Shown here piece by piece: positions 16,083 to 36,414 of a stretch of DNA of 64,000 bases. How positions within the stretch are numbered: position 1 is the first letter of the stretch; every line of letters begins with the position of its first letter. The DNA is from Maribacter sp. MMG018 (lineage in GTDB: Bacteria; Bacteroidota; Bacteroidia; Flavobacteriales; Flavobacteriaceae), in contig NZ_JAGJEC010000001.1 in the NCBI RefSeq assembly GCF_018100785.1, positions 930,001-994,000 on the forward strand. Reading direction: 5' to 3'. Under the pieces are notes generated by a model, which worked only from the letters and a program-made list of their open reading frames with translations, did no database searches and was not told the origin of the DNA. Made by a program: the position numbers and the translations under genes.

Positions 16083-16090
16083 CAAAAAAG

Positions 16091-16941: not shown

Positions 16942-16949
16942 ATTGGGGT

Positions 16950-17153
16950 ATGGCAATTATAGTGAACTTGGATGTGGTATTGGCGAAAAGGAAAATGAAA
17001 TTAAAAGAACTGTCTGAAAAGGTAGGCGTGTCTACGGTTAACTTATCTATTTTGAAGCAGGGGAAAGGTAAGGCAATTCGTTTTTCGACCTTAGATTCTA
17101 TTTGTTCAGCTTTGGATTGCCAACCTGGGGATATTTTAGAGTATGTTGAATAG
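16950..17153 (+). CDS. Small XRE/Cro-family helix-turn-helix regulator
   Basis: A 67-residue single-domain DNA-binding protein: the HTH runs KLKELSEKVGVSTVNLSILKQG (about residues 19-40), and CSALDCQPGDILEY at the end is diagnostic of the YozG-like Cro/CI subfamily. Such genes often sit beside a small membrane protein, as here (8-base gap to the gene before). The target is unknown. Confidence 0.82.
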   Translation: MAIIVNLDVVLAKRKMKLKELSEKVGVSTVNLSILKQGKGKAIRFSTLDSICSALDCQPGDILEYVE

Positions 17154-17202
17154 ATTATACCACATACGACGGTTATGCTGTCTAAATGTTAAACACTATT
17201 GT

Positions 17203-17790
17203 CTATAGCTGCCAAGGTTTTCGATTGAACAAGATGAACAATACTGGTTTTACCTTATCTGAAAGTTTTTTGCGTAGAATCTTAAATCCTCTGGTAATTT
17301 GAGCTTCTACGGCCTTTACCGAAATCTCTAGATGTTCGGAAATTTCAATATTTGTTAGTCCTTCTTTTTTACTTAACATAAAGACTTGCTTGCATTTTGG
17401 AGGTAGATCTTCCATCATGTTTTTTACGTCGGCGATAAGTTTCTTTGTACTTTCCTCGTCTTCCGCTACAATGGTGTTAAGGTGTTCAATATACTTTTTT
17501 TCAATCCGTAATAAAGATTGTGACTTTCTGTATTGATCTATAAACTCGTTATAGACAGATTTGTATAAAAAGCTTTTTAGTGAATGATCAGGGTTTAGCA
17601 TGTTCCGTTTTTCCCATACGTTTATAAAAACGTTCTGTACAATATCATCTGCCAGCATACTATTGTTCACAAGGCTGTTTGCGTAAACGCATAACCTATG
17701 GTGATAAGAGTCTACCAGAAAAGAAAATGCCTTCTTGTTATTCTGTTGAAGACATTTTATCAAAACTTTATTGTCCTTGAAATCCATCAT
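17203..17790 (-). CDS. FecI-like ECF sigma factor (Bacteroidota sigma-70 family)
   Basis: A 195-residue sigma factor. Region 2 is at about residues 15-85 (VDSYHHRLCVYANSLVN, ADDIVQNVFINVWEKR, LKSFLYKSVYNEFIDQYRK) and region 4 at about 130-180 (LPPKCKQVFMLSKKEGLTNIEISEHLEISVKAVEAQITRGFKILRKKL is the helix-turn-helix region in pieces). It is divergent from the fecR-like gene and the susCD genes 118 bases away. Sigma factors of this type are released by FecR when the cognate STN-containing receptor binds its ligand. Usually sigma and fecR genes lie head to tail; here they are back to back. Confidence 0.87.
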   Translation of the reverse strand: MMDFKDNKVLIKCLQQNNKKAFSFLVDSYHHRLCVYANSLVNNSMLADDIVQNVFINVWEKRNMLNPDHSLKSFLYKSVYNEFIDQYRKSQSLLRIEKKYIEHLNTIVAEDEESTKKLIADVKNMMEDLPPKCKQVFMLSKKEGLTNIEISEHLEISVKAVEAQITRGFKILRKKLSDKVKPVLFILFNRKPWQL

Positions 17791-17907
17791 TCTAAATCCA
17801 TCGCTCTATAAAAATAGTATAAATATGAAATGAAACAGAAAAAAAATTGCTGGAGGCATAGGGTGTGTATTTTGAGAATCGTATTAGAAATATAATTGAT
17901 TAGCTTA

Positions 17908-19074
17908 ATGAAAGATAAAAGAATCGAAGAACTGATTGTAAAGTTTATTTCGAAGGCCATAACAGAACCTGAACTAGAAGAATTGTCCGATTGGTTGGAC
18001 CAACAAGAGAACGAACAATTGTTCAAAGATTTCATTCAGGTAAATTATGCCTTGGATTATAATATGTCGAACTTTGATTCGGAAAGGGCAAAGCTTGTTT
18101 TATTGGACAAAATAGGAGGCTCAGATGACGCCAACCCTGGAAAAATAAGAAAACTTAAGTTTTATAAGTATGCGGTTGCTGCGGCAATCGCTATTCTTGT
18201 TTCCCTTGCTGTATTTTACTCTACAGAGGATTTAGAACCAACTTCAGAAATCATAGCAAATACCGAAGCTTCTATTCTTCCTGGAACGGATAAGGCTATA
18301 CTCACACTTGATAATGGTAAACATATCACCCTGGAAAAAGGAAAACAGGTGCGTATCGATGAGGTCACCAGTAATGGAGAAAGTCTTCGATATAAAAAGG
18401 GACAAAAAGGAAGCCAAGAAATAGTGTATAATTACTTGACTATTCCACGAGGGGGGCAATTCTTTGTAGAGCTATCGGATGGCACCAAGGTTTGGCTCAA
18501 CTCAGAGTCTAAATTAAAATATCCGGTGTCTTTTGTTTCCGGAGCGCCCAGAAGTGTGGAGTTAATTTATGGAGAGGCCTATTTCGATGTTTCTCCAAGT
18601 ACAGAAAATAATGGAGCATCATTTCGTGTGCAAACAAGAAACCAAAATATAGAGGTACTTGGCACTGAGTTCAATATTTCGGCATACGAAAACGACCAAA
18701 GCATTCACACAACCTTGATCGAAGGAAGTATTGCTGTAAGTAATGGTGCCGAAGGCAAAATACTTGATCCGGGTATGCAATCCATCTTATATATGGATGA
18801 GGCCGAAATTCAAGTGAAAAATGTTGATGTCAATTACGTTACGTCATGGAAAGATGGACTGTTCATGTTCGATAAAAAGCCTTTGGGGGAAATGATGAAA
18901 GTATTGGCTAGATGGTATAATATAGAGGTGGAATTCGAAAACCTGGAAAAACGGGATTTGGAATTTTCCGGAATATTGAAAAGAGGAAATGAGATAAACG
19001 TATTATTGGAAAAAATAGAACATACAGGTCTTGTGAAATTTTCTATACAGGACAATAAGATATTAATAAAGTAA
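17908..19074 (+). CDS. FecR-family anti-sigma factor
   Basis: A 388-residue protein. The cytoplasmic N-terminal segment (about 1-85) binds sigma, a single helix spans about residues 87-106 (YKYAVAAAIAILVSLAVFYS), and the periplasmic FecR domain follows (VSFVSGAPRSVELIYGEAYFDV, TRNQNIEVLGTEFNISAY), ending with a DUF4974-type C-terminus (KPLGEMMKVLARWYNIEVEFE). The ATG at 17908 is chosen over a TTG at 17896. It should relay substrate binding at the downstream SusC receptor to the divergent sigma factor. Confidence 0.9.
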   Translation: MKDKRIEELIVKFISKAITEPELEELSDWLDQQENEQLFKDFIQVNYALDYNMSNFDSERAKLVLLDKIGGSDDANPGKIRKLKFYKYAVAAAIAILVSLAVFYSTEDLEPTSEIIANTEASILPGTDKAILTLDNGKHITLEKGKQVRIDEVTSNGESLRYKKGQKGSQEIVYNYLTIPRGGQFFVELSDGTKVWLNSESKLKYPVSFVSGAPRSVELIYGEAYFDVSPSTENNGASFRVQTRNQNIEVLGTEFNISAYENDQSIHTTLIEGSIAVSNGAEGKILDPGMQSILYMDEAEIQVKNVDVNYVTSWKDGLFMFDKKPLGEMMKVLARWYNIEVEFENLEKRDLEFSGILKRGNEINVLLEKIEHTGLVKFSIQDNKILIK

Positions 19075-19103
19075 AATAATAGGATATGATGAAATAAAAT
19101 AAA

Positions 19104-19149
19104 AAAGGAATAAAGCTATCACCGTCCAAAGTAGCAGCTAAATTCCTTT
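19104..19149 (+). repeat. Imperfect hairpin in the fecR-susC gap
   Basis: AAAGGAAT (19104-19111) pairs with ATTCCTTT (19142-19149), and AGCT pairs inside it. No T run follows, so it may stabilise or modulate the susC mRNA leader rather than terminate. Confidence 0.4.
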
Positions 19150-19195
19150 AAGTGATCAATTAAACGAATTGTTTAACCAATACCAATACAAATAT

Positions 19196-22100
19196 ATGAA
19201 AATCGGAATGACCCCAGTCTTTGTATGTCGATTACAAAGGCTAACTAAACTAATCATGAGGACCTTTATTTTTTTGTTTTTGACTTCAGTTTTCGGTCTG
19301 AGCCCAAAATCAGGGTTTTCTCAGAATGCTGACATATTCATTAATACAGAAAAAGTAGTTTCTCTAAAAGAGGTTTTTGAACTTATCAAGGCCCAAACAG
19401 ATTATGAATTCGTATACGCGGACGACCTTGTGAAAGATGCTCCTAAAATTCTTTTGAAAGAAGGGAGTGTAAAGGTGGGAACCTTGTTAAAAAAAGGCTT
19501 GGACCCCATATTTTGTACCTACGAATTTACCGATAACACCGTAATCGTTAAACGAAAGATACACCCTGTATTAGGTGTTCCCTTACAAGAAACTTTTTCT
19601 GTTTCAGGTACGGTCAAGGATAAAAATGGAATGCCGATTCCTGCGGCATCCGTATATGTTGCCAGCAATGAACCGTCAAGGGATGCAGATCGCCCCGATG
19701 ACTTTATCGTAAGAGGTACAGTTACCGATTTTGATGGTAATTTTAAAATAGACGCAAGTCTCGATTATTATTTAGCTGTTTCTGCATTAGGTTTTGAGTT
19801 TAAATATCAGAAGATTACGACCAAACAAGATTTTTACGAAATTGTGCTTGATGAAAGTGCCAGTAGGCTCGATGAGGTTGTGGTCGTAGGTTATGGTACC
19901 ACTGTAAAGAAAGACCTAACGGGTTCGGTAGGCTCGGTTAAAAGTGAAGAAATAGTACAATATAAGAGCCAGACGGTAGATAATGCCCTTGCGGGCAAGA
20001 TTACAGGTGTAAATGTTATGAGTGCCGGTGGTCGTCCAGGGCAAGGTGGTGTTGTTCAGATCAGGGGCCTCAGTTCACTTAGGGGTGACAACCAGCCATT
20101 GTATGTGGTAGATGGGGTTCCTTTTGTTGTTAACCCTAGTGTCGACGACGGTTCTGGTGCCAGTGGCCTTTTTAGTACGGGTTTGACAAGTATAAATCCA
20201 TTGGCGGCCATTAACCCTGAAAACATTGAACGAATCGACGTGTTGAAAGATGCTTCCGCCGCAGCTATCTATGGTTCAAGAGCGGCCAATGGGGTTATAT
20301 TGATTACTACCAAGAGGGGAAAAGCTGGGGAGCGTACCAAATTTAACTTCAGCATAAGTTCCACTGTAAGCAATCCGATTAAGACATATGATTTTTTGAA
20401 TGCGGCCGAATACAAACAGTTTGCCCTTGAACAATCACAAAGTGTTCTGGACAATAGTGCTTATCCAGAGGCACAATGGCCCTATTTGCATCCAAAGGAA
20501 TATGAGGTGGTCAACAACCCCGATTTTTTCGGAAATGGAGATACCGATTGGACGAAGGCCATTACCAATAGCAATGCCCTGTGGAGGCAATATAATCTGG
20601 GGGTTACTGGAGGCACCCAAAAGGCTGCATACTCCCTTTCCGCCTCTATTGCCGATCAAGAGGGAATCGTGGTGAACAATGACGTAAAGAGATATAATGT
20701 GGCTTCTAATTTAGATGTGAATGTTACCAAGAAATTACGGGTTGGAGGTTCTATCAACTATAACCATATGATAGATGAGATTTCCGGTATTACGGGAATT
20801 GGACAAGGGTCCTTTTCTTCAGCTGCCGCTTTCCGACCTGATATTCCTATTTATGACGCGAATGGAAACTATACCAAAGCTTACAGTGATAGATATGGAG
20901 AAGTATTCAATCCATTGGGTGACCAAGGTAGAATAACGAATAAGACAGTATCGAAAAATCTATTTGGCGCCTTTTATGCAGAATGGGAATTTTTGAAAAA
21001 CCTTAAATTCAGGTCTCAGGCCAGTATCGGGGTAAATGACATAACAAATACCGTGTTCACCCCGTCGTTTACACAAGATGCCCTATTTGATGGGAGATAC
21101 CGTGGGGCCCCAGGAGCCAATCTTGTCGACCTGCGGGTAGACGGGTTTAATACGGCATTTGAAAATACACTTTCCTATTCCAACCTTATCGGCGAGAACC
21201 ATAAAATAGATGCAGTGGCGGGTATTTCGTATAACCGGAACAGGGATGATAGGCAGTCGGTGCGTTATAGGGAATTTCCTGATGATTTTATCTTAATTAA
21301 TCCTGGATCGGCCAATATCGTGGAGAATAATACATCCGATCACTTTGAGGCCGTTCTGAATTCTGTATTCGGTCGAGTCAACTATGGATATAAAGAGCGT
21401 TATCTGGCCACCTTTACCTTAAGGGCGGACAAGTCGACAAAATTTGGCCCTGGTAACCAAACCGGTGTTTTCCCTTCCGGGGCGTTGGCATGGAACATGC
21501 ATAATGAGTCTTTTCTAAAAGACAGCAAATGGTTGGATCAACTAAAGTTAAGGGCAAGTTTGGGTCGTACCGGTAGTGACAATCTTCCCTCGTTTACTTT
21601 CTTGCCGACATTTTCCGCCACTGGAGGTTACAATGTTAGTAAAGGAACCATATCAAGCGACGTGCCCAACCCGGACATAAAATGGGAAACAACAGACCAA
21701 TTGGATCTAGGTCTTGAATTGGGTCTGTTCGATCAACGATTGAATGCAGAGATGGTTTATTTTGAAAAAAACACCTCCGATCTAATACTTGTAGTCCCTA
21801 TTGTGAATGAAACCGGTACGTTGCAGCAAAACCAGAACGTGGCGGACGTGACCAACAAAGGTTGGGAATTTTTGCTCGGAGCCGATATAATCAGAACAGA
21901 AAACTTCTCTTGGAATTCCTCGTTCAATATCAGTTTCATAAAGAATAAAGTGGAAAGCCTGAATGGGGGAAGTGTCAATTTATATGGTAGCCCAGGGGTT
22001 GTGGAAGGAGAGCCTTTTGGGGTGATACAAGGGTATAATGTGCTGGGTATTGCACAAACACAGGAAGAAATAGATGCCCTTAATGGCCAAGCGGCGGCCA

Positions 22101-22744
22101 ATGGTGCGCCAGGAGGGGTTTACAGTAGTTTGTTGCAGGGGCCAGGGGATTACATTATGGAGGATATTGATGGCAACGGTTATGTTGATTCGGAAGATAG
22201 GGAGGCAATTATTGGCAATGTGAACCCCGACTATTTTGGTGGTTGGTCCAATACGCTCACGTATAAAAATCTGGATTTCAGTTTTAATTTTCAATTTGTT
22301 CAGGGAAATGACAAAATCTTTGATCTGTACAATAGGTTTACCATGGTGGATGTCACGGAAAATGTCATTAAAGACCATTTAAACCTTGTATGGTCTTCCT
22401 CCAACACAGACGGAACCCTTGCCCGTTTGAGGTCACCATCCTATGATGGGGGCAGGACAAATTCAAGATCTATAGTGGATGGTAGTTATGTAAGGTTAAG
22501 GTATGTAGGTTTGGGCTATAGGTTTCCTCAAATGTCCTGGATGGATAAACTTGGAATCACCGCAGCCAAGCTGTCGATCAGTGGAAACAATCTCTTGACC
22601 TTTACGAATTATCCAGGTCTCGATCCCGAAGATCAATCTGCTTTTCGAAGGGGCAATATTACCGATTTTTCCAGTTTTGGTGATGATGGCAGTGGATATC
22701 CCCAGGCCAGAAGCTTTACACTTACACTAAACGTAACCTTTTAA
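19196..22744 (+). CDS. SusC/RagA-family TonB-dependent receptor with STN signalling domain
   Basis: An outer membrane importer of 1182 residues from the ATG at 19196 (a TTG at 19169 gives a less likely longer form). A signal peptide ends near GFSQ, an STN secretin/TonB short domain follows (about residues 45-120, KEVFELIKAQTDYEFVYADD), then a carboxypeptidase-like domain (about 135-225), the SusC linker and plug (DEVVVVGYGTTVKKDLTGSV, GRPGQGGVVQIRGLSS, DVLKDASAAAIYGSRAANGV) and the barrel. The STN domain couples to FecR. It pairs with the SusD-like lipoprotein 11 bases downstream. Thiol-oxidoreductase and peptidase genes downstream suggest a peptide rather than a glycan as ligand. Confidence 0.93.
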   Translation: MKIGMTPVFVCRLQRLTKLIMRTFIFLFLTSVFGLSPKSGFSQNADIFINTEKVVSLKEVFELIKAQTDYEFVYADDLVKDAPKILLKEGSVKVGTLLKKGLDPIFCTYEFTDNTVIVKRKIHPVLGVPLQETFSVSGTVKDKNGMPIPAASVYVASNEPSRDADRPDDFIVRGTVTDFDGNFKIDASLDYYLAVSALGFEFKYQKITTKQDFYEIVLDESASRLDEVVVVGYGTTVKKDLTGSVGSVKSEEIVQYKSQTVDNALAGKITGVNVMSAGGRPGQGGVVQIRGLSSLRGDNQPLYVVDGVPFVVNPSVDDGSGASGLFSTGLTSINPLAAINPENIERIDVLKDASAAAIYGSRAANGVILITTKRGKAGERTKFNFSISSTVSNPIKTYDFLNAAEYKQFALEQSQSVLDNSAYPEAQWPYLHPKEYEVVNNPDFFGNGDTDWTKAITNSNALWRQYNLGVTGGTQKAAYSLSASIADQEGIVVNNDVKRYNVASNLDVNVTKKLRVGGSINYNHMIDEISGITGIGQGSFSSAAAFRPDIPIYDANGNYTKAYSDRYGEVFNPLGDQGRITNKTVSKNLFGAFYAEWEFLKNLKFRSQASIGVNDITNTVFTPSFTQDALFDGRYRGAPGANLVDLRVDGFNTAFENTLSYSNLIGENHKIDAVAGISYNRNRDDRQSVRYREFPDDFILINPGSANIVENNTSDHFEAVLNSVFGRVNYGYKERYLATFTLRADKSTKFGPGNQTGVFPSGALAWNMHNESFLKDSKWLDQLKLRASLGRTGSDNLPSFTFLPTFSATGGYNVSKGTISSDVPNPDIKWETTDQLDLGLELGLFDQRLNAEMVYFEKNTSDLILVVPIVNETGTLQQNQNVADVTNKGWEFLLGADIIRTENFSWNSSFNISFIKNKVESLNGGSVNLYGSPGVVEGEPFGVIQGYNVLGIAQTQEEIDALNGQAAANGAPGGVYSSLLQGPGDYIMEDIDGNGYVDSEDREAIIGNVNPDYFGGWSNTLTYKNLDFSFNFQFVQGNDKIFDLYNRFTMVDVTENVIKDHLNLVWSSSNTDGTLARLRSPSYDGGRTNSRSIVDGSYVRLRYVGLGYRFPQMSWMDKLGITAAKLSISGNNLLTFTNYPGLDPEDQSAFRRGNITDFSSFGDDGSGYPQARSFTLTLNVTF

Positions 22745-22755
22745 TAAAGAACATT

Positions 22756-24261
22756 ATGAAACAATATATATATAAAGCATATGGGATGGGTGTCTTCATC
22801 TGTCTTTTAATTTTCAGTTCATGCGATCTTACTACGGCCGTCGATGATGTAGAACCATTATATACAATATCTGCCGATGAGGCTATTTATGATGAAAAAT
22901 CAGCGGATCTGGCCCTTTTGGGGGTGTATTCGGGAATGACACAGTATGGACTGGATTTCCCGACTGTATTTTTTGTTCCCGATATTTTTCTGGGTTATAG
23001 TAATGCCGGATTTTATGCTAATAATGAGGAGCAATTGGGGTGGTCTTCAAACAACCCGATATTGACGGGCTCAATTCAGCATGGGGCATACACAAGGTTT
23101 TACTCTTTGATCAATAATGCCAATTGGGTAATTGAACAGACCGGTATGCTGTCCGATGATATATTCGATACTCCGGGAAGAAGGGCAGAGGTGATAGCAG
23201 AGGCTAGGTTAATGCGTGCTTTGGCTACTTTTTATTTACTAAGGGCTTACGGTCAATTCTATGATACGTCATCTGAATTTGGTGTGGTATTGCGTACGGA
23301 CCCTGCCCGTTATGAAGAAGAATTGCCAAGAAGTTCCGTTCAAGAAACCTATACGGCAATTCTAGCAGATATCGAGGATGGTATTGCGAATGCACCGGAG
23401 AATAGGGGAAAGACGTTTACAAACAAAACATTTGCCAGGGCGTTCAAGGCCAAAGTATTGCTTTATATGGGTGATTATCAACAGGCAGCTTCCGAAGCAA
23501 AAGCGGTTATTGAGAACCCAGGATCGGGTTTTGCCCTTGAAGCCGACTACGCCAGTATTTTTGGTCCTCATGATAGTCCGACATTGTTCGAAAAGAGTGA
23601 GATTATCTTTGGTATACCGGGAGTGGAAACTCCTGAAGGTACCGGTGTAGGTTGGGGTAATTTTTATAATGGCTTTTCGGCCGGGGTCGATCCTGTTTAT
23701 TTTGATATGGTGAATACAGGTACGTTGACCATTGGAGGCCAGACAATTGCCCATGACGGTGGGCGGGTCGAATCAATTACCGACCCTTTTGGCGGTTCCT
23801 TGGGTACGCCATTAATGACCAAATATTCTGATTATACAACCGATTATGAAATGCACTACGTGATGCGTATGGCAGAAATATACCTGATTCATGCAGAAGC
23901 TGCCGCTAGAGCTTCCGGGATGGTAACCCCGGAGGCGTTAAGCTCATTAAATGAGGTAAGAAAAAGGGCAGGGGCTACCACAACCGGAGGCGACGGGTTC
24001 GAAACTTACCCTGAAAGTATTTCATTGTCAGAATTTTTAGAAGCTGTTCGTATAGAGAAACTTGTGGAACTTTATGCCGAAAATGGTGAAAATTGGTTCG
24101 ATGCCGTACGATATGCCTATGAGGACGGAGGGTTTAATTCTGGTTTTCAGGTTTCAGAAATAAAAGCCACGGCTACCGATCCCAATAAATTTATTTTTCC
24201 AATACCCCAAACCTCTGTAGAGGTCAATTCATTATTAGTTCAAAATCCGGGGTACCAATAG
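22756..24261 (+). CDS. SusD/RagB-family substrate-binding lipoprotein
   Basis: A 501-residue surface lipoprotein with a lipobox FSSC (Cys about residue 24). The SusD fold is seen in the N-terminal TPR-like part (ADEAIYDEKSADLALLGVYSGM; AEARLMRALATFYLLRAYGQFYD) and the C-terminal motif of RagB (MRMAEIYLIHAEAAARA, LNEVRKRAGA, RIEKLVELYAENGENWFDAVRY). It lids the SusC barrel and captures the ligand. The gene follows susC directly. A strong hairpin after its stop separates it from the TlpA genes. Confidence 0.93.
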   Translation: MKQYIYKAYGMGVFICLLIFSSCDLTTAVDDVEPLYTISADEAIYDEKSADLALLGVYSGMTQYGLDFPTVFFVPDIFLGYSNAGFYANNEEQLGWSSNNPILTGSIQHGAYTRFYSLINNANWVIEQTGMLSDDIFDTPGRRAEVIAEARLMRALATFYLLRAYGQFYDTSSEFGVVLRTDPARYEEELPRSSVQETYTAILADIEDGIANAPENRGKTFTNKTFARAFKAKVLLYMGDYQQAASEAKAVIENPGSGFALEADYASIFGPHDSPTLFEKSEIIFGIPGVETPEGTGVGWGNFYNGFSAGVDPVYFDMVNTGTLTIGGQTIAHDGGRVESITDPFGGSLGTPLMTKYSDYTTDYEMHYVMRMAEIYLIHAEAAARASGMVTPEALSSLNEVRKRAGATTTGGDGFETYPESISLSEFLEAVRIEKLVELYAENGENWFDAVRYAYEDGGFNSGFQVSEIKATATDPNKFIFPIPQTSVEVNSLLVQNPGYQ

Positions 24262-24292
24262 AATTTTCCTGACAGATAAATCAGTTGGATAA

Positions 24293-24326
24293 GGTTATGG
24301 AAAGGTAAAACGCCCTTTCCATAACC
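24293..24326 (+). terminator. Strong hairpin after susD
   Basis: A perfect 13-base stem (GGTTATGGAAAGG at 24293-24305, CCTTTCCATAACC at 24314-24326) with an 8-base loop. No T run follows, so it may be a partial terminator or an mRNA 3'-end protector that sets high susCD relative to the downstream genes. The 24327-24489 interval after it holds no gene. Confidence 0.5.
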
Positions 24327-24489
24327 CTCCAATAAACTCAGTTTCCTGATAGGGATTAATATTGGTGCAATGGACAATATCTGTCGTGACCTTTTTTGCT
24401 TATCTCTTGATTTCAATTTTTGGCAAGTTCATAAAGAGGCCTTTAAGGAGACTTTTATACTATAAACAATTAAACTTTTACATCAAAAA

Positions 24490-25674
24490 ATGAAAATATA
24501 TATCAAAGCGACGATTTTTGTCCTGACAGGACTTTTACTTATTACATCATGTAAAAAAACTGAAAAAAGACCTCCGAATCAATTTACATTGGAAGGTGAA
24601 ATAAAAGGGTTAAAATCTGATTTTTTCTTTAGACACCCAGATAAAGAATATACAAGGGAAACCCCTCCGGATACCATTCACGTAATAGACGGAAAAATCA
24701 AATTTTCAGATACCATTTCGAAACTTTCATTGATCAGGGCCTATACAGATTATAAAGATGAGGACAGTAAGATATTCAAGAAAGCGGCCGACGGAGGGTA
24801 TTTTCCTGTGAAATCAATGTACTTAATGTTTTTTGCTTATCCCGGGGCGGATATTAAAATACAAGGGGAGGCCAGTGATTTTATAGATGCGTACCCCAGT
24901 GGTGATGCATATAACAATAGTTTGGCCGCTGTAAACAGACTTACCTTTCCGAACATAAACAAAAGTGCCAATCTTATGGTAAAGGCTACTTATGAGAAAG
25001 ATTCCGTGGTTATAGAACAACTTCAAAAAAAAGCTGAGGAAATTAGTAAAAAAGGAAGAGAGGCTTTAATTGAGCATGTTAGGGAACATCCAAAATCATT
25101 GGGGGCCCTGTGGTATTTGGAAGACATGATTATGCGTGGCCAAATAGAAGATACAGTTGCGATCGATCTATTTAATAATGTCTCTAAAGAACTCAGTGAC
25201 CTAAGTTTTTATAAAACGGCCGAAACCCGTATTCAAGGTATTAGAGCTACTGCCGAGGGTATGCCGGTGCCAGCTATTAAAACCAATGCAACCTTGGAAG
25301 GTAGTGAGTTCGATATCGCATCGTTCAAAGGAAAATATGTGTTGATAGATTTTTGGGGTATTTGGTGTGGACCTTGTGTCAAAGAAATGCCCAAAGTAAA
25401 GGCCTTTCAAGAAAAATACAAGGACAAGCTCGTAGTGTTGGGAATAAACTCGGGCGACACAAAAGAAAAAATAGAAGAATTTATCACCGATAACGGCTAT
25501 GACTGGCAGCAATTAATGAGTGATAGAGGGAATACTCCCGATAATTTCGTAACCCGTTTCAATGTAAAAGGCTTTCCCACAAAATTCATTGTAGATCCTG
25601 AAGGAAAAATTATGAAAAGATATTTAGGAGGGGGAGAAGATGCATTTGAATTATTGGAGGAACTTTTAAACTAA
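24490..25674 (+). CDS. TlpA-like thioredoxin-fold lipoprotein, copy 1
   Basis: A 394-residue exported lipoprotein (lipobox ITSC at about residue 21) with an N-terminal DUF4369-type beta domain (about 30-130), a helical linker, and a C-terminal AhpC/TSA-TlpA thioredoxin domain from about 265 with active site WCGPC (Cys293, Cys296) and the cis-Pro loop GFPTKF. It would reduce or isomerise disulfides in the periplasm or on the outer membrane. It is the first of three tandem related genes behind susCD; the next starts 26 bases later. Its sequence is more divergent than the other two. Confidence 0.88.
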   Translation: MKIYIKATIFVLTGLLLITSCKKTEKRPPNQFTLEGEIKGLKSDFFFRHPDKEYTRETPPDTIHVIDGKIKFSDTISKLSLIRAYTDYKDEDSKIFKKAADGGYFPVKSMYLMFFAYPGADIKIQGEASDFIDAYPSGDAYNNSLAAVNRLTFPNINKSANLMVKATYEKDSVVIEQLQKKAEEISKKGREALIEHVREHPKSLGALWYLEDMIMRGQIEDTVAIDLFNNVSKELSDLSFYKTAETRIQGIRATAEGMPVPAIKTNATLEGSEFDIASFKGKYVLIDFWGIWCGPCVKEMPKVKAFQEKYKDKLVVLGINSGDTKEKIEEFITDNGYDWQQLMSDRGNTPDNFVTRFNVKGFPTKFIVDPEGKIMKRYLGGGEDAFELLEELLN

Positions 25675-25700
25675 CAAGTGTCTATACTAAAACTTAAATC

Positions 25701-26897: not shown

Positions 26898-26918
26898 GAA
26901 TAAATAAAACTAAAAACC

Positions 26919-28118
26919 ATGAAAAAAATATTAAAAACAATACTGCCAATGGCCATCCTGCTATTGGTAACCGCAAATTGCAAACAAGAAGAACCCTTTG
27001 ATGGTTATACCGTTACGGGTACTGTTAAAGGCTTGAATACTGGCTGGGTCAAATTAACAGAAGCTGCAAACCGCAATAAAGTTATCGTACTCGATAGTAC
27101 AGAGATAGTAAACGGTACTTTTGAATTTAAAGGAAAAGTAGAAGCCCCAGATATGGTGAATCTGGTTATTGAAAATAAAAGCGCATGGTTTTTTCTAGAA
27201 AACAGCGATATAAATATAGCAATAGATTGGTCTACAGTAAAGCCAGAAGATTGGCAATTTACTCCAATCGTTTCAGGTTCAAAATCAAATGACGAGTTTG
27301 AGCGGTTGGAAGCTGAATCTCAGGCCATCTTTAAAAAACCAAAATATGCGCCCCTAGATTCTATTCAGGTAGCTTATGCCAAAGCCAAAAAGAATAATGA
27401 CCCTAAATTATTAGAAGAAGCAGAGGCGTTACAAAAAAAACTAAGTCCATTGTCTGAAGAGCGCAGAGCAGAATATACCAAGGCAAAATATAATCACGCA
27501 AAGAATAATCCAAGCTCACCTGTAGCAGTTTATTTTTTAGGATATCAATATACAGAGGGACGAATGAGCAAGGGCCAACTTAAGGAGTTTTATAATCTTT
27601 TTCAAGGTGATGCAAAAAAAACGGCTTTTTATAGAAACCATATCACCAAAGTTTATAAAGATGTATTTGAGAATTTGGGAGAAGGGAATAAAGCTCCTGA
27701 TTTCACTTTAGATACAGTTGATGGAAAGGCACTTTCTTTGGCTGATGTAAAAGGAAAATACCGTTTAATCGATTTTTGGGCAAGCTGGTGTATACCATGT
27801 CGCGAATCATTTCCTCATCTAAAGGAATTAAGAAAAAAATACGGGACCGATAATTTTGAGATTATAGGTATAGGTACGGCCGATGCAGAAAACAAATGGA
27901 GAAAAGCTATTGACGAAGATCAAATTTCATGGATACAAGTATATGATGATGCAGGTATGGGTGATGAAAAGAGAGCACCCTATGGTCCGGTTGCCAAATT
28001 ATATGGAGTGCCACATTTACCTACTACATTTTTAATAGATGAAAATCAAACAATTCTGCTACGTAATGCTACAAAAGAGGAGTTAGACGCTAAACTTATA
28101 GAACTTCTTGGTTATTAA
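26919..28118 (+). CDS. TlpA-like thioredoxin-fold lipoprotein, copy 3
   Basis: A 399-residue lipoprotein (lipobox TANC at about residue 22) of the same design as copy 2: N-domain starting FDGYTVTGTVKGL, helical linker, thioredoxin domain with WASWCIPC (Cys291, Cys294) and HLPTTF cis-Pro loop. It begins 21 bases after copy 2. Three TlpA paralogues with CGPC, CVPC and CIPC centres in one SusCD operon point to sequential or parallel thiol chemistry on an imported substrate. Electrons could come from the DsbD-like protein downstream, which is inference. Confidence 0.88.
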   Translation: MKKILKTILPMAILLLVTANCKQEEPFDGYTVTGTVKGLNTGWVKLTEAANRNKVIVLDSTEIVNGTFEFKGKVEAPDMVNLVIENKSAWFFLENSDINIAIDWSTVKPEDWQFTPIVSGSKSNDEFERLEAESQAIFKKPKYAPLDSIQVAYAKAKKNNDPKLLEEAEALQKKLSPLSEERRAEYTKAKYNHAKNNPSSPVAVYFLGYQYTEGRMSKGQLKEFYNLFQGDAKKTAFYRNHITKVYKDVFENLGEGNKAPDFTLDTVDGKALSLADVKGKYRLIDFWASWCIPCRESFPHLKELRKKYGTDNFEIIGIGTADAENKWRKAIDEDQISWIQVYDDAGMGDEKRAPYGPVAKLYGVPHLPTTFLIDENQTILLRNATKEELDAKLIELLGY

Positions 28119-28127
28119 TGAAATGAT

Positions 28128-28672
28128 ATGAAAAACTACATTAAACTAATAGCAACGCTCGTCTTAGTACTAAGTATAACGACCATAAAGGCACAAGACA
28201 TTGATAAACAAGATATAAGTGTACTATATGTTGGCTACAGTTCGGAAAAACCAATGCCCGAAAATTTAGAGTCCGCGAGAATAAGCGGAGGTATGACACC
28301 AGAACGTTTCAAGGAAGAATACGGAAAAAGAATGCCTGCATTTGAAGACTTGTTAAACAAGTATTTCACAAAGGTAACCAGTGTGGACCCAAGAGATTAT
28401 TTTTATTCTGAACCGGATGCTTTTCATGACCTAAAGGTAGATGAGGATATCATAAGTCTGGGTGTCGCAAACACTGATATAGAAGTGCTTGATAAGGCGA
28501 TAACAATGATGGCATTTATATTTATGGGAGCTCACTCGTTTTTGCAAAGTACTTCTCGGTAGGTGAGTTCTCTGAAAAGGATAAAATTGTTGCCAGTCTA
28601 TATTATCAAACCTGTGACCGGTATAAATGCTTTCCACCTAATACAAAGACTAAAAACTTAAGTGTTCTATAA
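28128..28672 (+). pseudogene. Decayed exported protein, apparently a fusion of two gene remnants
   Basis: An open frame from ATG 28128 to a stop at 28562 gives 144 residues: a signal peptide (ending KAQ), the opening segment VLYVGYSSEKPMPENL ... MPAFEDLLNKYF, then SEPDAFHDLKVDEDI and an abrupt out-of-character tail. In another frame, codons from about 28511 to a stop at 28670 encode LVFAKYFSVGEFSEKDKIV and YYQTCDRYKCFPPNTKT, which resembles the end of a DsbD N-terminal domain (compare CDDQRC in the DsbD-like protein here). I infer internal deletions and a frame shift joined fragments of a longer signal-peptide protein and of an nDsbD-like gene. Confidence 0.55.
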
Positions 28673-28736
28673 TTAACATTTTTTTTAAATAGGGTGTAGA
28701 CTTTTAAAATCGTACTACGCCTAAATAACCTATATA

Positions 28737-31556
28737 ATGATGAAAATTTTAACTAAAACGAAAATAATTTTCTGCACGATCGCAGCCATGGGGCTACAAC
28801 AATTTGTAAATGCCCAGAATGGTACCGATAAATTCTCGAAAGTGAAAGAACTTGGTGGCATCGAAGAATATATGTACGAGCCAAATGGAATGAACCTGCT
28901 GTTGTTACAAGATAATGCGGCACCTGTTGTAACCGTGCAGGTGGTTTATAGAGTGGGGTCAAAACATGAAGTTCCGGGAAATACAGGCTCTACCCATTTG
29001 TTGGAACATTTAATGTTCAAGGGAACGACTAAGTTTCATAAGAGCAAAGGAACCTCTATTGATAGCAAGTTAACCGGTATAGGTGCCCGGATGAATGCTA
29101 CTACTTGGAATGATAGAACCAACTATTATGAAACCATACCCAGTGACCAATTGGAACTTGCATTGGACATTGAAGCCGACAGAATGAGGAACTCTTTATT
29201 GCTAAAGGAAGACAAGGAGGCCGAAATGACTGTAGTACGTAACGAGTTTGAACGTGGTGAAAATAGTCCTTTCAACGTCTTGAACAAAGAAATTTGGGCC
29301 ATGGCCTATATGGCACACCCTTATCATCATGCGACTATTGGTTGGCGATCGGATATTGAAAAAATGCCGATCGAGACCTTGCGTAAATTTTATGATACGT
29401 ACTATTGGCCCAATAATGCAACGCTAACAATTATCGGAGATTTTCAGAAGGCCGATGTTTTTAATTTGGTAGATAAATACTTCGGAAAAATACCAAAGGC
29501 GCCCCATATAATGCCCCAGCCTTACACCGAAGAACCCGAGCAACTGGGTCCAAGAAAGACCATTGTCAAAAAGAATGGGCAACAAAGTATAGTTTCCATT
29601 GGGTATAAGATTCCAGGTAAATTACATGAAGATATGCCTGCCTTAACGGTTTTAGGCGAGATTTTGGGAAGTGGAACCTCATCTATATTAAGTAAAAAAT
29701 TCAAAGATACCGGTTTGGCTTATTCGGTTTTCGCAGAACCGTCAACTTTCAAGGATACGGGGTTATTTACCATAGCTCTTATTTTTGATCCGGCCTCTAG
29801 CCATGAAGACTTAAATAATCAGCTTTTGGCCGTAATCGAAAAGATAAAAAAAGAAGGGGTTGACCAAGCGGATGTGAATCGTGTCGTAGCTAAACTAAAA
29901 GCACAGACCATATTGTCTAGAGATGGTTCTGGTAGTATTGCCAGTCAACTTAACGAGGCTATTGCCGCAGGCGATTGGACAGATTATGTGACAAATACCG
30001 AAAAACTTGCAAAAGTTACGGCAGAAGATGTAAAACGGGTGGCCGCTACATATTTATTGGAAAATCAAAGTACAACGGGCTACTTTGTTGCGGACACGGG
30101 CTCAGCCATGGCCGAAGGAGGGCCAAAGTCTAGCAAACATCATGAGGTTAATGGTAAATATTATTATAGACATCCTGATTACACCGATGAAGAAACAGGT
30201 TATTCGGTATATAATATAGAGACTAAAGTATCTACTACAGCTAACGAAACACCTGCTAGTGAAGAGATAGTGAATAAGGTAAAGGATAAAAAATTCACTA
30301 GAAAAAACATTGAGGGTATCGATGTTGTGACCGCCAAAACCGGTGTTAAGGACTTTATCACGGTTTCTGCGAGTTTTCCTATTGCAAATTATCACAATAC
30401 AAACGGGAACAATGTAGTGCCAATGTTGACAGTTGGAATGCTAGATAAGGGGACAACGGAACATGATAAGTTCAATTTTTCTCAAAAGTTGGACAAACTA
30501 GGAGTTAATTTCAATATAAACGCAGGTACCCATCACGTTCAAATTGGATTTAAATGTCTAAAAAAAGACGTGAATGAAGTAGTGGCGCTATTAGCCGAGG
30601 AATTAAGGTACCCCTTGTTTGATGCCAAAGAGTTTGATCTGCTCAAACAACAGATAATCGGTAGTATTAAAAGAGGTATTTCAGATCCGGCGACCCAAGG
30701 GTCTATTGCCCTTTCCCAGGCTATTTACCCAGAGGGGCATCCAAATTATAAGTATGATGTTCAGTCGACTATCAAAAACATTGAAAAAGCGACCTTAAAT
30801 GAATTGAAAACATTTCATAGCAACTATTTCGGGACAAAAGGAATGCATCTGGTAGTTGTCGGTGATGTGGATACCAATGAACTGTACAAATCATTGAAGA
30901 AAGCTTTTAAGGGCTGGAATGGAGGCCAAGTTTCTTCTTCTACTTATAAAGAACCATCAAAAACGAGTGCTTTGGAAAAAGTTGTAACCATTCCTCAAAA
31001 GCCCAGTGCTCAATTATTTATAGGTCAATATACAGGTATCAAAAGAACCGACAAGGATTATGTGCCTTTTTACATGGCGACGAGTATTTTGGGCGGAGGT
31101 TTCTCAGGTAGATTAATGCGTACGGTCAGGGATGTAGAAGGATTGACATATAGTATAGGAGCAGGCCATTCTGGTCATGAAAATTCCGGTGGACATTGGT
31201 TGGTATATGCTACGTTCAACCCTAGCTTATTTCAAAAAGGACTGGACGCGACTATGGTGCAGATAAAAAAATGGGTAAACGAAGGGGTTACCAAAGAAGA
31301 ATTGGCTGCAAAAAAATCGAATATAACAGGTAGCTTCAAAGTGAGTTTGGAAACCACCTCAGGACTTTCAAGAACTATTTTGAGTTTCCTTCAAAGAGGA
31401 TGGGAGCCCGATTATATAGATCAGTATCCAAAAGATGTAGAATCGGTTACCTTAGATCAAGTAAATGCCGCAATTAAGAAATATATAGATCCGGATAACT
31501 TGATTGTAATTAAATCAGGCTCGTTGGACAAGGAGGGCAAACCACTTGTGGAATAG
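28737..31556 (+). CDS. Exported M16-family (pitrilysin/insulinase-like) zinc metallopeptidase
   Basis: A 939-residue peptidase with a signal peptide (ending VNAQ, about residue 27) and two tandem M16 halves. The active half carries the inverted zinc motif HLLEH at residues 87-91 with the distal acidic ligand in AEMTVVRNE (163-170). The C-terminal half includes the substrate-binding LGGGFSGRLMRTVRDVEGLTYS region. Such enzymes cut peptides within an enclosed chamber, favouring oligopeptides. Placement after three TlpA genes suggests it degrades imported peptides in the periplasm once disulfides are reduced. A second ATG at 28740 is an equally good start. Confidence 0.92.
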   Translation: MMKILTKTKIIFCTIAAMGLQQFVNAQNGTDKFSKVKELGGIEEYMYEPNGMNLLLLQDNAAPVVTVQVVYRVGSKHEVPGNTGSTHLLEHLMFKGTTKFHKSKGTSIDSKLTGIGARMNATTWNDRTNYYETIPSDQLELALDIEADRMRNSLLLKEDKEAEMTVVRNEFERGENSPFNVLNKEIWAMAYMAHPYHHATIGWRSDIEKMPIETLRKFYDTYYWPNNATLTIIGDFQKADVFNLVDKYFGKIPKAPHIMPQPYTEEPEQLGPRKTIVKKNGQQSIVSIGYKIPGKLHEDMPALTVLGEILGSGTSSILSKKFKDTGLAYSVFAEPSTFKDTGLFTIALIFDPASSHEDLNNQLLAVIEKIKKEGVDQADVNRVVAKLKAQTILSRDGSGSIASQLNEAIAAGDWTDYVTNTEKLAKVTAEDVKRVAATYLLENQSTTGYFVADTGSAMAEGGPKSSKHHEVNGKYYYRHPDYTDEETGYSVYNIETKVSTTANETPASEEIVNKVKDKKFTRKNIEGIDVVTAKTGVKDFITVSASFPIANYHNTNGNNVVPMLTVGMLDKGTTEHDKFNFSQKLDKLGVNFNINAGTHHVQIGFKCLKKDVNEVVALLAEELRYPLFDAKEFDLLKQQIIGSIKRGISDPATQGSIALSQAIYPEGHPNYKYDVQSTIKNIEKATLNELKTFHSNYFGTKGMHLVVVGDVDTNELYKSLKKAFKGWNGGQVSSSTYKEPSKTSALEKVVTIPQKPSAQLFIGQYTGIKRTDKDYVPFYMATSILGGGFSGRLMRTVRDVEGLTYSIGAGHSGHENSGGHWLVYATFNPSLFQKGLDATMVQIKKWVNEGVTKEELAAKKSNITGSFKVSLETTSGLSRTILSFLQRGWEPDYIDQYPKDVESVTLDQVNAAIKKYIDPDNLIVIKSGSLDKEGKPLVE

Positions 31557-31608
31557 AACATAGTTTTAAATTATTCGAATTATTTAAAAATAAGATCAAA
31601 AGAATTTT

Positions 31609-31640
31609 AAGGGGGTGTTTTCTATAAAAGCCCCCTTTTT
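31609..31640 (+). terminator. Intrinsic terminator after the M16 peptidase gene
   Basis: AAGGGGG (31609-31615) pairs with CCCCCTT, an inner TTTT/AAAA extends the stem, and a T run follows to 31640. It lies only 13 bases before the DsbD-like gene, which may then need read-through or a separate promoter. Confidence 0.75.
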
Positions 31641-31652
31641 AAACCAACCCAA

Positions 31653-33647
31653 ATGAAAGCGAAAACATTACTTTTTCTCGCGTTGCTCATAATACAATCA
31701 TATGTGTCCGCGCAAATTCTAGACCCGGTTAAATGGTCTACTTCAGTTGAAAAAATTAGTGATACCGAGTACAAATTAATATCCAAGGCATCAATTGATC
31801 CCGGTTGGCATCTATACTCGCAAAATGTTCCGGAAGATGGGCCGATACCAACAACGTTTAGTTATTTAAACGAGGATACGTCCTTTGTACTGGTTGGGGG
31901 CACTACAGAGGAAGAAGGCCATACGGTGGACGATCCGATTTTCAATATGAAAATTAAATTTTTTGAAGACCAAGCCACTTTTGAACAGATTATAGAGGTG
32001 TTCGAGATTAAAAGTACTTATAAGGGTATTGTTGAGTTCATGGTCTGTGATGATCAAAGATGTCTTCCCCCGACCGAAGTGGATTTGGTGTTTGAGATTC
32101 CGAATGTGGATAAGACAATAGTCCCAAATGAAAAAAACAACGCAAAAAATAGTACAATAACAGATGAAAGGGAGGTTGGTGCCATAGCCAAATCAAAATC
32201 ATCGAGAGGGTTGTGGGCAATTTTCTTTATAGCTTTTATATCTGGCTTTGCGGCTCTTTTGACACCATGTGTTTTTCCAATGATTCCATTAACGGTTAGT
32301 TATTTTACCAAACAGAGTAAGAATAAGGCGGTAGGAATTAAAAATGCCGTACTTTATGGAATTTCGATTATAGTAATATACGTATTTTTAGGAAGCGCGG
32401 TCACCGCTATTTTTGGGGCAGACTCCCTCAATGCCTTAGCCACTAATGTCTGGTTCAATATTATCTTTTTTCTATTACTTGTAACCTTTGCGGTTTCTTT
32501 TTTGGGCGCCTTTGAAATTACATTGCCACATTCTTGGGCTAACAAGATAGATGCCCAATCTACAAAAAGTGGATTGATCGGTATATTTTTTATGGCATTG
32601 GCATTGGCTATTGTTTCTTTTTCTTGTACCGGTCCTATTGTGGGTACACTTTTGGTTGAGGCAGCTTCAAAAGGAGGCACTGCTCCAATAATCGGAATGT
32701 TAGGTTTTTCACTTGCTATTGCATTACCGTTTGCACTGTTCGCGGCATTTCCCGGATGGTTGAACTCACTTCCAAAATCAGGAGGATGGTTAAACACGGT
32801 AAAGGTGGTGTTGGGTTTTTTAGAACTGGCATTGGCGTTTAAATTCTTGTCACAGGCAGATTTGGTTATTCAGTTACATTGGTTGGAACGTGAGGTGTTC
32901 ATTGCAATTTGGATTGCTATTTTTGGCGCTTTAGGGCTTTATCTTCTTGGGAAGATACGATTACCACACGATTCTCCCATGACCCATATTTCTGTAGGTA
33001 GATTAGGACTGGCATTGTTAACCTTGACTTTTACCATTTATATGATACCGGGCCTTTGGGGTGCTCCATTAAATCTGATAAGTGCTTTTCCGCCTCCTTT
33101 AGAATATAGTGAATCGCCTTATGGAGTAGGGTATTCTAAGGTAGGTGCAGGAACGGTATCGGCGGATCATGGAGATTTGCCCGATGGGGGACATCTTCTG
33201 GCTCCTCATGATATTTTGGCTTTTAATGATTATGATAAAGGGCTGACATACGCCAAAAAAGTAGGCAAACCGATACTGATAGATTTTACAGGATGGGCCT
33301 GTGTCAATTGTCGGAAAATGGAACAAAATGTATGGCCCAAACCTGCGGTACTAGATGTTTTGAAGAACAAAGTAGTACTTGTTTCATTGTATGTGGACGA
33401 TAAACGACCCTTGTCTACGGGAGAAGAAGTAGATTCTAAATTAAAACCAGGTAAAAAATTAAAATATATAGGTCAAAAATGGAGCGAACTACAAACAATA
33501 AGATATAAGGCAAATTCGCAACCCTTTTATGTGCTAATGGACCATAATGAAGAGAATCTCATAGATCCAGTAGGATATACACCCGATACTGATGAATATT
33601 ATCGTTGGTTAGAGGATGGAATTTCCAAGTTTAAGGCATTACATTAA
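31653..33647 (+). CDS. DsbD-like thiol:disulfide interchange protein
   Basis: A 664-residue membrane protein. A signal peptide (ending VSAQ) leads into the periplasmic N-terminal nDsbD domain with its cysteine pair Cys132 and Cys137 (CDDQRC). About eight helices follow from residue 190, with the membrane cysteines in LLTPCVFPMIPLTV and SFSCTGPIVGT, then a C-terminal thioredoxin domain with CVNC (Cys550, Cys553). All three redox centres of DsbD are present. It carries electrons from cytoplasmic thioredoxin to the periplasm and is the natural reductant for the TlpA-like proteins upstream. Confidence 0.92.
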   Translation: MKAKTLLFLALLIIQSYVSAQILDPVKWSTSVEKISDTEYKLISKASIDPGWHLYSQNVPEDGPIPTTFSYLNEDTSFVLVGGTTEEEGHTVDDPIFNMKIKFFEDQATFEQIIEVFEIKSTYKGIVEFMVCDDQRCLPPTEVDLVFEIPNVDKTIVPNEKNNAKNSTITDEREVGAIAKSKSSRGLWAIFFIAFISGFAALLTPCVFPMIPLTVSYFTKQSKNKAVGIKNAVLYGISIIVIYVFLGSAVTAIFGADSLNALATNVWFNIIFFLLLVTFAVSFLGAFEITLPHSWANKIDAQSTKSGLIGIFFMALALAIVSFSCTGPIVGTLLVEAASKGGTAPIIGMLGFSLAIALPFALFAAFPGWLNSLPKSGGWLNTVKVVLGFLELALAFKFLSQADLVIQLHWLEREVFIAIWIAIFGALGLYLLGKIRLPHDSPMTHISVGRLGLALLTLTFTIYMIPGLWGAPLNLISAFPPPLEYSESPYGVGYSKVGAGTVSADHGDLPDGGHLLAPHDILAFNDYDKGLTYAKKVGKPILIDFTGWACVNCRKMEQNVWPKPAVLDVLKNKVVLVSLYVDDKRPLSTGEEVDSKLKPGKKLKYIGQKWSELQTIRYKANSQPFYVLMDHNEENLIDPVGYTPDTDEYYRWLEDGISKFKALH

Positions 33648-33692
33648 TTTTTATGCTTTTTTTTTATTTAATTTATGAATTAGCTATAGACG

Positions 33693-33724
33693 GAATCACT
33701 TTGGCTTAAAGGCCAAGGTGATTC
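33693..33724 (+). terminator. Hairpin terminator after the DsbD-like gene
   Basis: GAATCACTTTGGC (33693-33705) pairs with GCCAAGGTGATTC (33712-33724) with one G-T pair and a 6-base loop, followed by TTGATT. It overlaps a possible upstream GTG start of the next gene, which argues for the ATG at 33748 instead. Confidence 0.6.
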
Positions 33725-33747
33725 TTGATTATGAATCAGGTAAGAAT

Positions 33748-35244
33748 ATGAGCGGAACGGATAAAAACCAAAATAAAGCATCATTGGAAAATTACTTCAA
33801 TGAATTTAGAAATCATATCGTAGGTGTTGATGAGGAATTCCGATCCCCGTATGGTAATCAGAAAATCTTGTATGCAGATTGGACCGCAAGTGGTAGATTG
33901 TATAGACCTATAGAAGAAAAACTGCTCTATGAAGTTGGGCCTTTAGTAGCGAATACACATACCGAAACCTCTTTTACCGGGGCATCAATGACGAACGCAT
34001 ATCATCAAGCTCGCAATATTATTAAAGAGCATGTTAACGCATCAAAAGATGATATTCTTATTACTGTGGGTACGGGGATGACGGGGGCTATTAATAAATT
34101 TCAACGTATTTTGGGATTAAAGGTGTCCGAAAACCTAAAAGAACATACACATGTTCCGGATGCTTTGAGGCCTATAATTTTCATTTCGCATATGGAGCAT
34201 CACTCCAACCAAACTTCTTGGCTGGAAACCATTGCAAAGGTCGAGGTTATACCTGCTAATGATGAAGGGCTTCCATGTCTATTGGAACTGAAGAAACTGC
34301 TGGATAAATATAAAGATTGGCCTTTAAAAATAGCCGCTATTACAGGATGTTCCAATGTCACCGGTATTAGAACAAATTATCATGAAATAGCTACATTGAT
34401 GCATCAGAACAATGGTTTGTGCTTTGTTGATTTTGCATGTTCCGCCCCGTATGTTCATATTGATATGCATCCAGAAAATAAAGATGCATATTTGGATGCA
34501 ATCACTTTTTCCCCACATAAATTTTTGGGAGGTCCAGGATCGTCGGGAGTTTTGGTCTTCAATAAAAAGTTATATAAGAACCTAGTGCCGGACAATCCGG
34601 GAGGAGGAACGGTATCCTATACCAATCCATGGGGCGACCATGATTATATAGATGATATAGAAACTCGTGAAGATGGGGGTACTCCGGGTTTTTTACAAAC
34701 GATTAAGGTAGCATTGGCCATTAGGCTTAAAGAGAAGATGGGGGTTCAGAATATCTTGGATAGAGAGCATGAAATGAACTCATATATCTTTAATAGGCTT
34801 TTGAACATAAAAAATCTACACATTCTTGCAGAACATCACAGAGATCGTTTAGGAATATTCTCTTTTTATATTGATGATGTTCATTACAATTTGATAGTTA
34901 AACTTTTAAATGACCGTTTTGGTATACAAACAAGGGGTGGTTGTTCGTGCGCGGGTACTTATGGCCATTATTTGTTACATGTAGACCAACTGAAATCTAA
35001 GGCTATAGAGCAAAAAATTCTAGAAGGATGCCTTATAGAGAGACCGGGGTGGATTCGTATGTCGATACACCCGACAATGACACAAGAAGAATTGACCTAT
35101 ATCTGTGATGCCATCGAAGCTACGGCAAAAAATCATGAAGATTGGGGAAAAGATTATAAATACGATAGTGCAAAGAATGAGTATGTTCATTTAGGGAAGA
35201 ACAAATCGGAGAACGAAATTATAGCTGATTGGTTTAATTTATAG
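33748..35244 (+). CDS. Class V aminotransferase / cysteine-desulfurase-like PLP enzyme
   Basis: A 498-residue cytoplasmic PLP-fold enzyme. The PLP lysine is Lys258 in TFSPHKFLGGPGSSG; the cofactor ring Asp lies in FVDFACSAPY; HMEHHSNQ resembles the HHSN of cysteine desulfurases. RGGCSCAGTYGH (Cys399, Cys401) occupies the place of the catalytic Cys loop of SufS/NifS-type enzymes. This supports desulfuration or beta-elimination of a cysteine-like substrate rather than simple transamination, but that is inference. It ends the putative thiol/peptide locus and converges on glycerate kinase with 37 bases between. No signal peptide. Confidence 0.82.
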   Translation: MSGTDKNQNKASLENYFNEFRNHIVGVDEEFRSPYGNQKILYADWTASGRLYRPIEEKLLYEVGPLVANTHTETSFTGASMTNAYHQARNIIKEHVNASKDDILITVGTGMTGAINKFQRILGLKVSENLKEHTHVPDALRPIIFISHMEHHSNQTSWLETIAKVEVIPANDEGLPCLLELKKLLDKYKDWPLKIAAITGCSNVTGIRTNYHEIATLMHQNNGLCFVDFACSAPYVHIDMHPENKDAYLDAITFSPHKFLGGPGSSGVLVFNKKLYKNLVPDNPGGGTVSYTNPWGDHDYIDDIETREDGGTPGFLQTIKVALAIRLKEKMGVQNILDREHEMNSYIFNRLLNIKNLHILAEHHRDRLGIFSFYIDDVHYNLIVKLLNDRFGIQTRGGCSCAGTYGHYLLHVDQLKSKAIEQKILEGCLIERPGWIRMSIHPTMTQEELTYICDAIEATAKNHEDWGKDYKYDSAKNEYVHLGKNKSENEIIADWFNL

Positions 35245-36406: not shown

Positions 36407-36414
36407 AGGTCGGA

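Follow-up and report, generated by a model that had tools for sequence, protein, structure and literature searches.

The locus at positions 17203-35244 of the stretch of Maribacter sp. MMG018 DNA analysed here (64,000 nt, G000:C1:930001-994000 of a 4.13-Mb genome; hereafter the window) encodes a SusC/SusD outer-membrane importer together with three TlpA lipoproteins, the remnants of two genes that we call X and Y, an M16 peptidase, a DsbD reductase and a SufS-related pyridoxal-phosphate (PLP) enzyme. The locus is real and recurrent, and the neighbourhood counts back this grouping of genes in part. We propose, with about an even chance of being right, that it imports a peptide or small protein across the outer membrane and links this import to periplasmic reduction and proteolysis. 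Pfam and NCBIfam profile searches confirmed the families and positions given in an earlier note on this DNA (the original prediction). The features are as follows.

17203-17790, minus strand: extracytoplasmic function (ECF) sigma factor, divergent from the other locus genes (TIGR02985, 136.1 bits versus a cut-off of 126.4)
17896-19074, plus strand: FecR anti-sigma factor (PF04773, FecR; PF16344, FecR_C)
19169-22744, plus strand: TonB-dependent transporter of the SusC/RagA type, probably carrying an STN signalling domain at its N-terminus (TIGR04056, 819 bits)
22756-24261, plus strand: SusD/RagB surface lipoprotein (PF07980, PF14322)
24490-25674, plus strand: TlpA lipoprotein 1, N-terminal DUF4369 plus TlpA, CGPC (Cys 21, 293, 296)
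25701-26897, plus strand: TlpA lipoprotein 2, N-terminal DUF4369 plus TlpA, CVPC (Cys 24, 295, 298)
26919-28118, plus strand: TlpA lipoprotein 3, N-terminal DUF4369 plus TlpA, CIPC (Cys 21, 291, 294)
28128-28512, plus strand: gene X remnant, an internal 969 bp missing relative to X of Maribacter thermophilus (531 aa, exported)
28505-28672, plus strand: gene Y remnant, only the 3' end of the 171-aa DsbD-alpha gene of M. thermophilus surviving
28737-31556, plus strand: M16 peptidase with two M16 halves (PF00675 and PF05193, two stretches each; HLLEH; signal peptide by eye)
31609-31637, plus strand: terminator-like hairpin with a downstream U run, in the M16/dsbD gap (-13.8 kcal/mol, z -2.0)
31653-33647, plus strand: DsbD with alpha, transmembrane and gamma parts (DsbD_N, DsbD_TM, Thioredoxin_7; six Cys)
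33692-33725, plus strand: strong hairpin without a U run, ahead of the PLP gene (-22.6 kcal/mol, z -6.8)
33748-35244, plus strand: class V PLP enzyme, SufS-related (PF00266, Aminotran_5, 161 bits; the listed GTG start at 33718 replaced by ATG 33748)

The thiol-handling parts that remain whole have kept their motifs. Each TlpA protein contains only three cysteines, namely the lipoprotein cysteine and the CxxC pair, and the CGPC, CVPC and CIPC motifs had been read correctly. DsbD has, as predicted, all three redox centres, made up of exactly six cysteines in three domains; it is a second copy, with a separate housekeeping DsbD encoded at G000:C10:1137962. Like SufS, the PLP enzyme aligns its catalytic lysine and cysteine (K268 and C411, invariant in 86/86 PLP sequences) with those of solved SufS-type proteins. 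Unlike SufS, it is about 500 residues long, scores far under the SufS model (148.5 bits, below the cut-off of 475.1), and carries an extra cysteine two residues ahead of the catalytic one; this position, 409, is Cys in 77/86 sequences and Trp in 9/86, and C409/C411 is the Cys-Ser-Cys loop that had been noted. No signal peptide is apparent by eye. The M16 peptidase has two domains, as claimed, with PF00675 and PF05193 each found twice and the HLLEH motif in the first half. Compared by sequence only with solved structures, it matches 5euf at 206 bits, 6b03/6brs (which we take to be FusC, codes that the text of PMC6793856 does not confirm) at 77 bits, and PqqL 6ofs at 59 bits.

Genes X and Y add two further thiol-handling parts to those of the original prediction, which had recognized a single decayed gene. 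The decay is real, but what remains is the deletion-scarred residue of two genes, the remnants being out of frame with each other after a 602-bp deletion. With 11 frames listed, the 12 members claimed for the locus are reached once the two remnants are counted separately. Both genes are intact in M. thermophilus HT7-2, the closest relative of the window's Maribacter (locus L006; SusD 95% identical), where Y encodes a 171-aa DsbD-alpha domain protein and X a 531-aa product with no Pfam match, an invariant CxC and, by a fold test, an N-terminal domain that is ThuA-like or class I amidotransferase-like. X and a DsbD_N domain are joined in one protein in 26/120 X homologues among the matches listed. 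In the X loci examined (n = 6: G329, G248, G169, G213, G297 and G006), Y and TlpA adjoin X in every case, SusC lies within the fetched stretch in every case (as a fragment in G297), and five of the loci also have a peptidase, M16 or S9, none being seen for G213; G169 has the full SusCD-TlpA-X-Y-M16-DsbD-PLP order, with a divergent M16. X is rare in a phylum-wide draw, in which 1/395 genomes matched, namely by the window's own remnant. Near one X locus, L029:11900-15940 encodes a protein of 1347 residues whose domains are FG-GAP, ASPIC/UnbV, vanadium-chloroperoxidase-like and type IX secretion system (T9SS) sorting.

The grouping recurs around the peptidase. Among 12 M16 loci of at least 51% identity (the window, G329, G248, G072, G204, G291, G283, G127, G257, G493, G527 and G543), SusCD is present in nine (absent from G072 and G291, and from G204, whose contig is only 4.3 kb long), TlpA in all but G291 (11), DsbD in 10 (not G248 or G493), and PLP follows DsbD in eight (not G248, G493, G543 or G204). 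The 12 loci span four SusC lineages, and because SusC is at most 35% identical between lineages while M16 is at least 51% identical, the same enzymes have been paired with different importers. The grouping also recurs, for TlpA, around the importer. A first contig scan with SusD gave 2 loci, and a wider genome search was used instead, which found SusD at E ≤1e-60 in 9/299 family genomes, the window's genome included. The lineage was then represented by 11 loci besides the window (L006 plus ten), of which L016 ends right after SusD; in the 10 informative loci, TlpA invariably follows SusD in the same orientation (10/10), and in L019 a PLP gene end is found on the far side of the sigma gene. The genome holds six further SusCD pairs, each viewed in a 15-20 kb stretch, and none has TlpA, M16, DsbD or PLP partners, so the grouping of the window locus is beyond chance. 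The identity of the genes, their intact redox and catalytic motifs and their recurrence are thus matters of observation.

Within the genus (36 Maribacter genomes), SusD (E ≤1e-60) occurs in two genomes and M16 (E ≤1e-100) in three, that of G325 being just 32% identical. The locus-type DsbD (92-100%) is found in the same two genomes, and 34/36 have some DsbD, the rest being 43-53% identical; PLP occurs in eight, in two of them at 93-100% identity and in the other six at 52-58%. The whole block is limited to one pair of close species and is therefore counted as one event, not as independent evidence. Relative to M. thermophilus, the ratio of nonsynonymous to synonymous substitution (dN/dS) spans 0.05-0.20 in nine genes of the locus (with only half of dsbD covered, and 2 gap codons in the sigma row), beside 0.03 for rseP and 0.13 for glycerate kinase; the PLP row, which showed false stops from gap handling, was discarded. 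These values place the nine genes under purifying selection; loss of X and Y has therefore not released the remaining locus genes.

The PLP enzyme keeps closer company with DsbD than with the importer. It is found in 141/299 family genomes at E ≤1e-100. In an earlier sample (n = 10 PLP loci), DsbD is directly upstream in nine, a divergent M16 is present in four, and SusC lies downstream of PLP in two. In 60 PLP loci sampled from the top of the list, with already-fetched and near-contig-end loci skipped, DsbD is directly upstream in 26 (24/30 at a PLP identity of at least 69%, 2/30 below), M16 is upstream in six and TlpA in six, and a thioredoxin-reductase-like gene is downstream in four; many of the remaining loci adjoin a gene reading as glmM. 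Here and below, the labels thioredoxin reductase, hut genes, glmM, tilS, GH2, metal efflux and biotin carboxylase were assigned by eye. The M16-DsbD-PLP order occurs in loci of both PLP subfamilies (Cys-Ser-Cys and Trp-Ser-Cys). These counts therefore tie PLP to DsbD, and it is the M16 loci that connect it with SusCD. Hut-like histidine-degradation genes lie near PLP or X loci in L054, L056, L053, L073 and L077.

In the proposed scheme, the cargo would be captured by SusD and imported by SusC on TonB energy, and its presence would turn the locus on by way of the SusC signalling end, together with FecR and the divergent sigma factor. The latter is present in the locus as the original prediction said, with the correction that it lies on the minus strand, and an STN domain at the N-terminus of SusC is plausible, although it scores 15.1 bits, under the Pfam cut-off of 28.4. 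The inner-membrane DsbD would relay cytoplasmic electrons to the TlpA lipoproteins and, where these are present, via Y to X; TlpA (and X) would break the cargo's disulfide or other thiol bonds, and the M16 peptidase would then cleave the reduced cargo. The SufS-like PLP enzyme, located in the cytoplasm, might finally act on cysteine or a different sulfur amino acid arriving there. The cargo class, its disulfides and the order of the steps we infer from family knowledge. A disulfide-bonded cargo and action of the PLP enzyme on cargo cysteine are conjectures from the same knowledge, and the sulfur-related role of this enzyme is the least certain step.

Several results weigh against this scheme. 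Among solved SusC proteins, the closest to that of the window is 8aa4, an importer of dextran (E 1.5e-107), with other solved matches ranking lower (RagA 5.7e-73, BT_2264 2e-50); the closest solved SusD proteins are without known ligands, and the RagB match is partial only. The dextran SusC as nearest solved relative does not settle the cargo of the window SusCD. Two parts of the putative relay, X and Y, are present in the window as broken copies only. Between M16 and dsbD lies the terminator-like hairpin (31609-31637), which may split dsbD-PLP from the genes upstream. Of the two terminators proposed earlier, at 31.6 and 33.7 kb, this one has its U run, whereas the other, at 33692-33725, is strong and perfect-looking, with a single occurrence in the window, but lacks such a run. 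The GTG start listed for the PLP gene falls within this second hairpin, and ATG 33748 is the more likely true start. In a consensus promoter and terminator scan of the window, counts were not above shuffles and neither hairpin was listed. Same-strand SusC is upstream of PLP in 0/60 loci, G072 and G291 carry M16-DsbD-PLP with no SusCD seen, and the DsbD-PLP module is separable, because such pairs are common without SusCD. M16 was detected in 32/226 genomes of the phylum draw; 27 of these matches are additional to G000, G127, G493, G527 and G543, and the genes shown around the 11 examined (30-50% identity) include no SusC, TlpA, DsbD or PLP. The original prediction had named as damaging the case in which the TlpA, M16, DsbD and PLP genes seldom travel with this SusCD. 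That case fails for TlpA, present in every informative SusD-lineage locus, and for the M16-SusCD pairing (9/12); it holds better for M16, divergent or not, in four of the ten (L006, L015, L023, L024/L049), for DsbD in three (L006, L020, L024/L049) and for PLP in three (L006/L032, L020, L024/L049). What stands of the claimed acquisition system for thiol- or disulfide-linked peptides is thus a recurrent unit, with a DsbD-PLP part that is mostly independent of SusCD and an importer whose nearest solved relative is one for dextran.

The alternative that survives best, which we nevertheless think rather unlikely, is an envelope redox and turnover module, in which TlpA, DsbD, M16 and PLP (with X/Y) clear the cell's own damaged envelope proteins and SusCD is adjacent by chance or through a shared sigma factor. 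Many genomes have DsbD-PLP or M16-DsbD-PLP without SusCD, and the thioredoxin reductase that follows PLP in 4/60 loci would suit such a role. However, SusCD accompanies M16 in 9/12 loci across four SusC lineages, TlpA is a constant neighbour in the SusD lineage (10/10) with no such partners at the other SusCD pairs of the genome (0/6), and a separate DsbD exists in the genome.

Piracy of a metalloprotein or metal-thiolate in the manner of Fus, with an iron-sulfur or metal protein imported, cut by M16 and relieved of its metal by thiol reduction, is a distinctly poor candidate. The pairing of a TonB transporter with a periplasmic M16 follows the logic of Fus as set out in the available portion of PMC6793856, metal-efflux-like genes lie near PLP in L030 and L050, and an iron-dependent repressor and a FeoB-like gene stand to the left of the locus. 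The nearness of FeoB says little, because the FeoB-to-rseP block is common Maribacter synteny; moreover, the window M16 matches 6b03/6brs far less well than 5euf (77 versus 206 bits), and the locus contains no inner-membrane metal transporter. Equally improbable is a polysaccharide or glycopeptide locus with its carbohydrate enzymes encoded at another site and with TlpA and M16 handling a glycoprotein carrier: the dextran relationship of SusC, an 854-aa GH2-like gene adjoining M16 in L023 and the mannosylglycerate-type genes to the right of the window locus speak for it, but no glycosidase, lyase or sulfatase family is found among the locus frames, the recognized genes of the 12 M16 loci include no carbohydrate enzyme (unrecognized genes were not all tested), and the genes to the right occupy the opposite strand and have a LacI regulator of their own.

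Coupled import, reduction and proteolysis, the reading that we prefer, can be set beside systems already described. Reductive pathways of the DsbD-TlpA/CcmG type consist of a three-part DsbD and TlpA-type CxxC lipoproteins; relative to these, the window has a dedicated second DsbD, three TlpA proteins and linkage to SusCD and M16. The carbohydrate-active enzymes that go with SusCD in a polysaccharide utilisation locus are not found among the locus frames. Like Fus and related systems (Pectobacterium FusA/FusC, E. coli YddB/PqqL), which the accessible parts of the sources describe as a TonB receptor with an M16 peptidase that processes protein or peptide cargo after import (PMC6793856, PMC6071955), the locus encodes a TonB-dependent importer with a periplasmic two-half M16 peptidase, a pairing repeated in the M16 loci with SusCD. 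Unlike Fus, SusC/SusD replaces the FusA receptor, the solved relatives of the transporter being SusC/RagA proteins; the peptidase falls outside the FusC/PqqL clade, nearer other M16 enzymes, as judged from match scores; and TlpA, DsbD, X/Y and PLP are added. A text search of PMC6793856 gave no occurrence of 'Bacteroidetes', 'thioredoxin', 'disulfide' or 'DsbD' and one of 'SusC', in the legend to a figure. The locus has the SusC and SusD pair that a SusCD/RagAB importer requires, and it shares this architecture with RagAB of Porphyromonas gingivalis, a peptide-importing SusCD, peptide uptake being a property of RagAB (PMC11817032, in part). Unlike RagAB, its SusC is closer to the dextran SusC than to RagA, and its thiol module does not appear in the description of RagAB in that part of PMC11817032. 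We found no account of a SusCD-TlpA-M16-DsbD locus in the open-access literature, subscription papers being outside coverage.

More tentatively, the locus may exemplify a modular 'reduce-and-cut' import of Flavobacteriaceae, combining a swappable SusCD for thiol-linked peptides or small proteins, a dedicated DsbD/DsbD-alpha/TlpA/X relay, an M16 peptidase and a sulfur-recovering SufS-like enzyme. If true, this system would be a Bacteroidota thiol counterpart of ferredoxin piracy, and X a new ThuA-like family. For SusCD loci without carbohydrate enzymes, the cargo is hard to assign, and the recurrent association of SusCD with a thiol-reducing relay and a peptidase allows the type of cargo to be predicted in a form that can be tested. 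It also suggests a route by which marine Bacteroidota might obtain nitrogen and sulfur from disulfide-rich peptides, and it names X as an unclassified protein family tied to thiol chemistry.

The left-hand synteny with other Maribacter stops at 16083-16130, just beyond tRNA-Asn, in 4/4 genomes compared, and the spot at 16009-17200 is therefore variable between species. An island integrated at tRNA-Asn was considered and is not shown, the 3' end of the tRNA not being repeated within the window. In three other Maribacter (L036, L037, L038), a Trp-Ser-Cys PLP relative occupies the chromosomal site where the window locus is found. The PLP gene as a plain member of the insert was set aside: in these loci a 52-53% identical relative stands beside rseP/tRNA-Asn, but it belongs to the Trp-Ser-Cys subfamily.

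To the right, on the opposite strand, 35282-40722 contains genes read by eye as a glycerate kinase, a sodium:solute symporter, a mannosylglycerate-hydrolase-like enzyme and a LacI regulator, and looks like a locus for mannosyl- or glucosylglycerate use. The original prediction that glycoside hydrolases, lyases and sulfatases are absent therefore stands for the locus frames but not for the surroundings, the hydrolase-like enzyme lying 3 kb to the right (38132-39442). Further along, 43438-46780 encodes adjoining malate synthase and isocitrate lyase of the glyoxylate bypass, with a helix-turn-helix (HTH)/IrrE regulator upstream.

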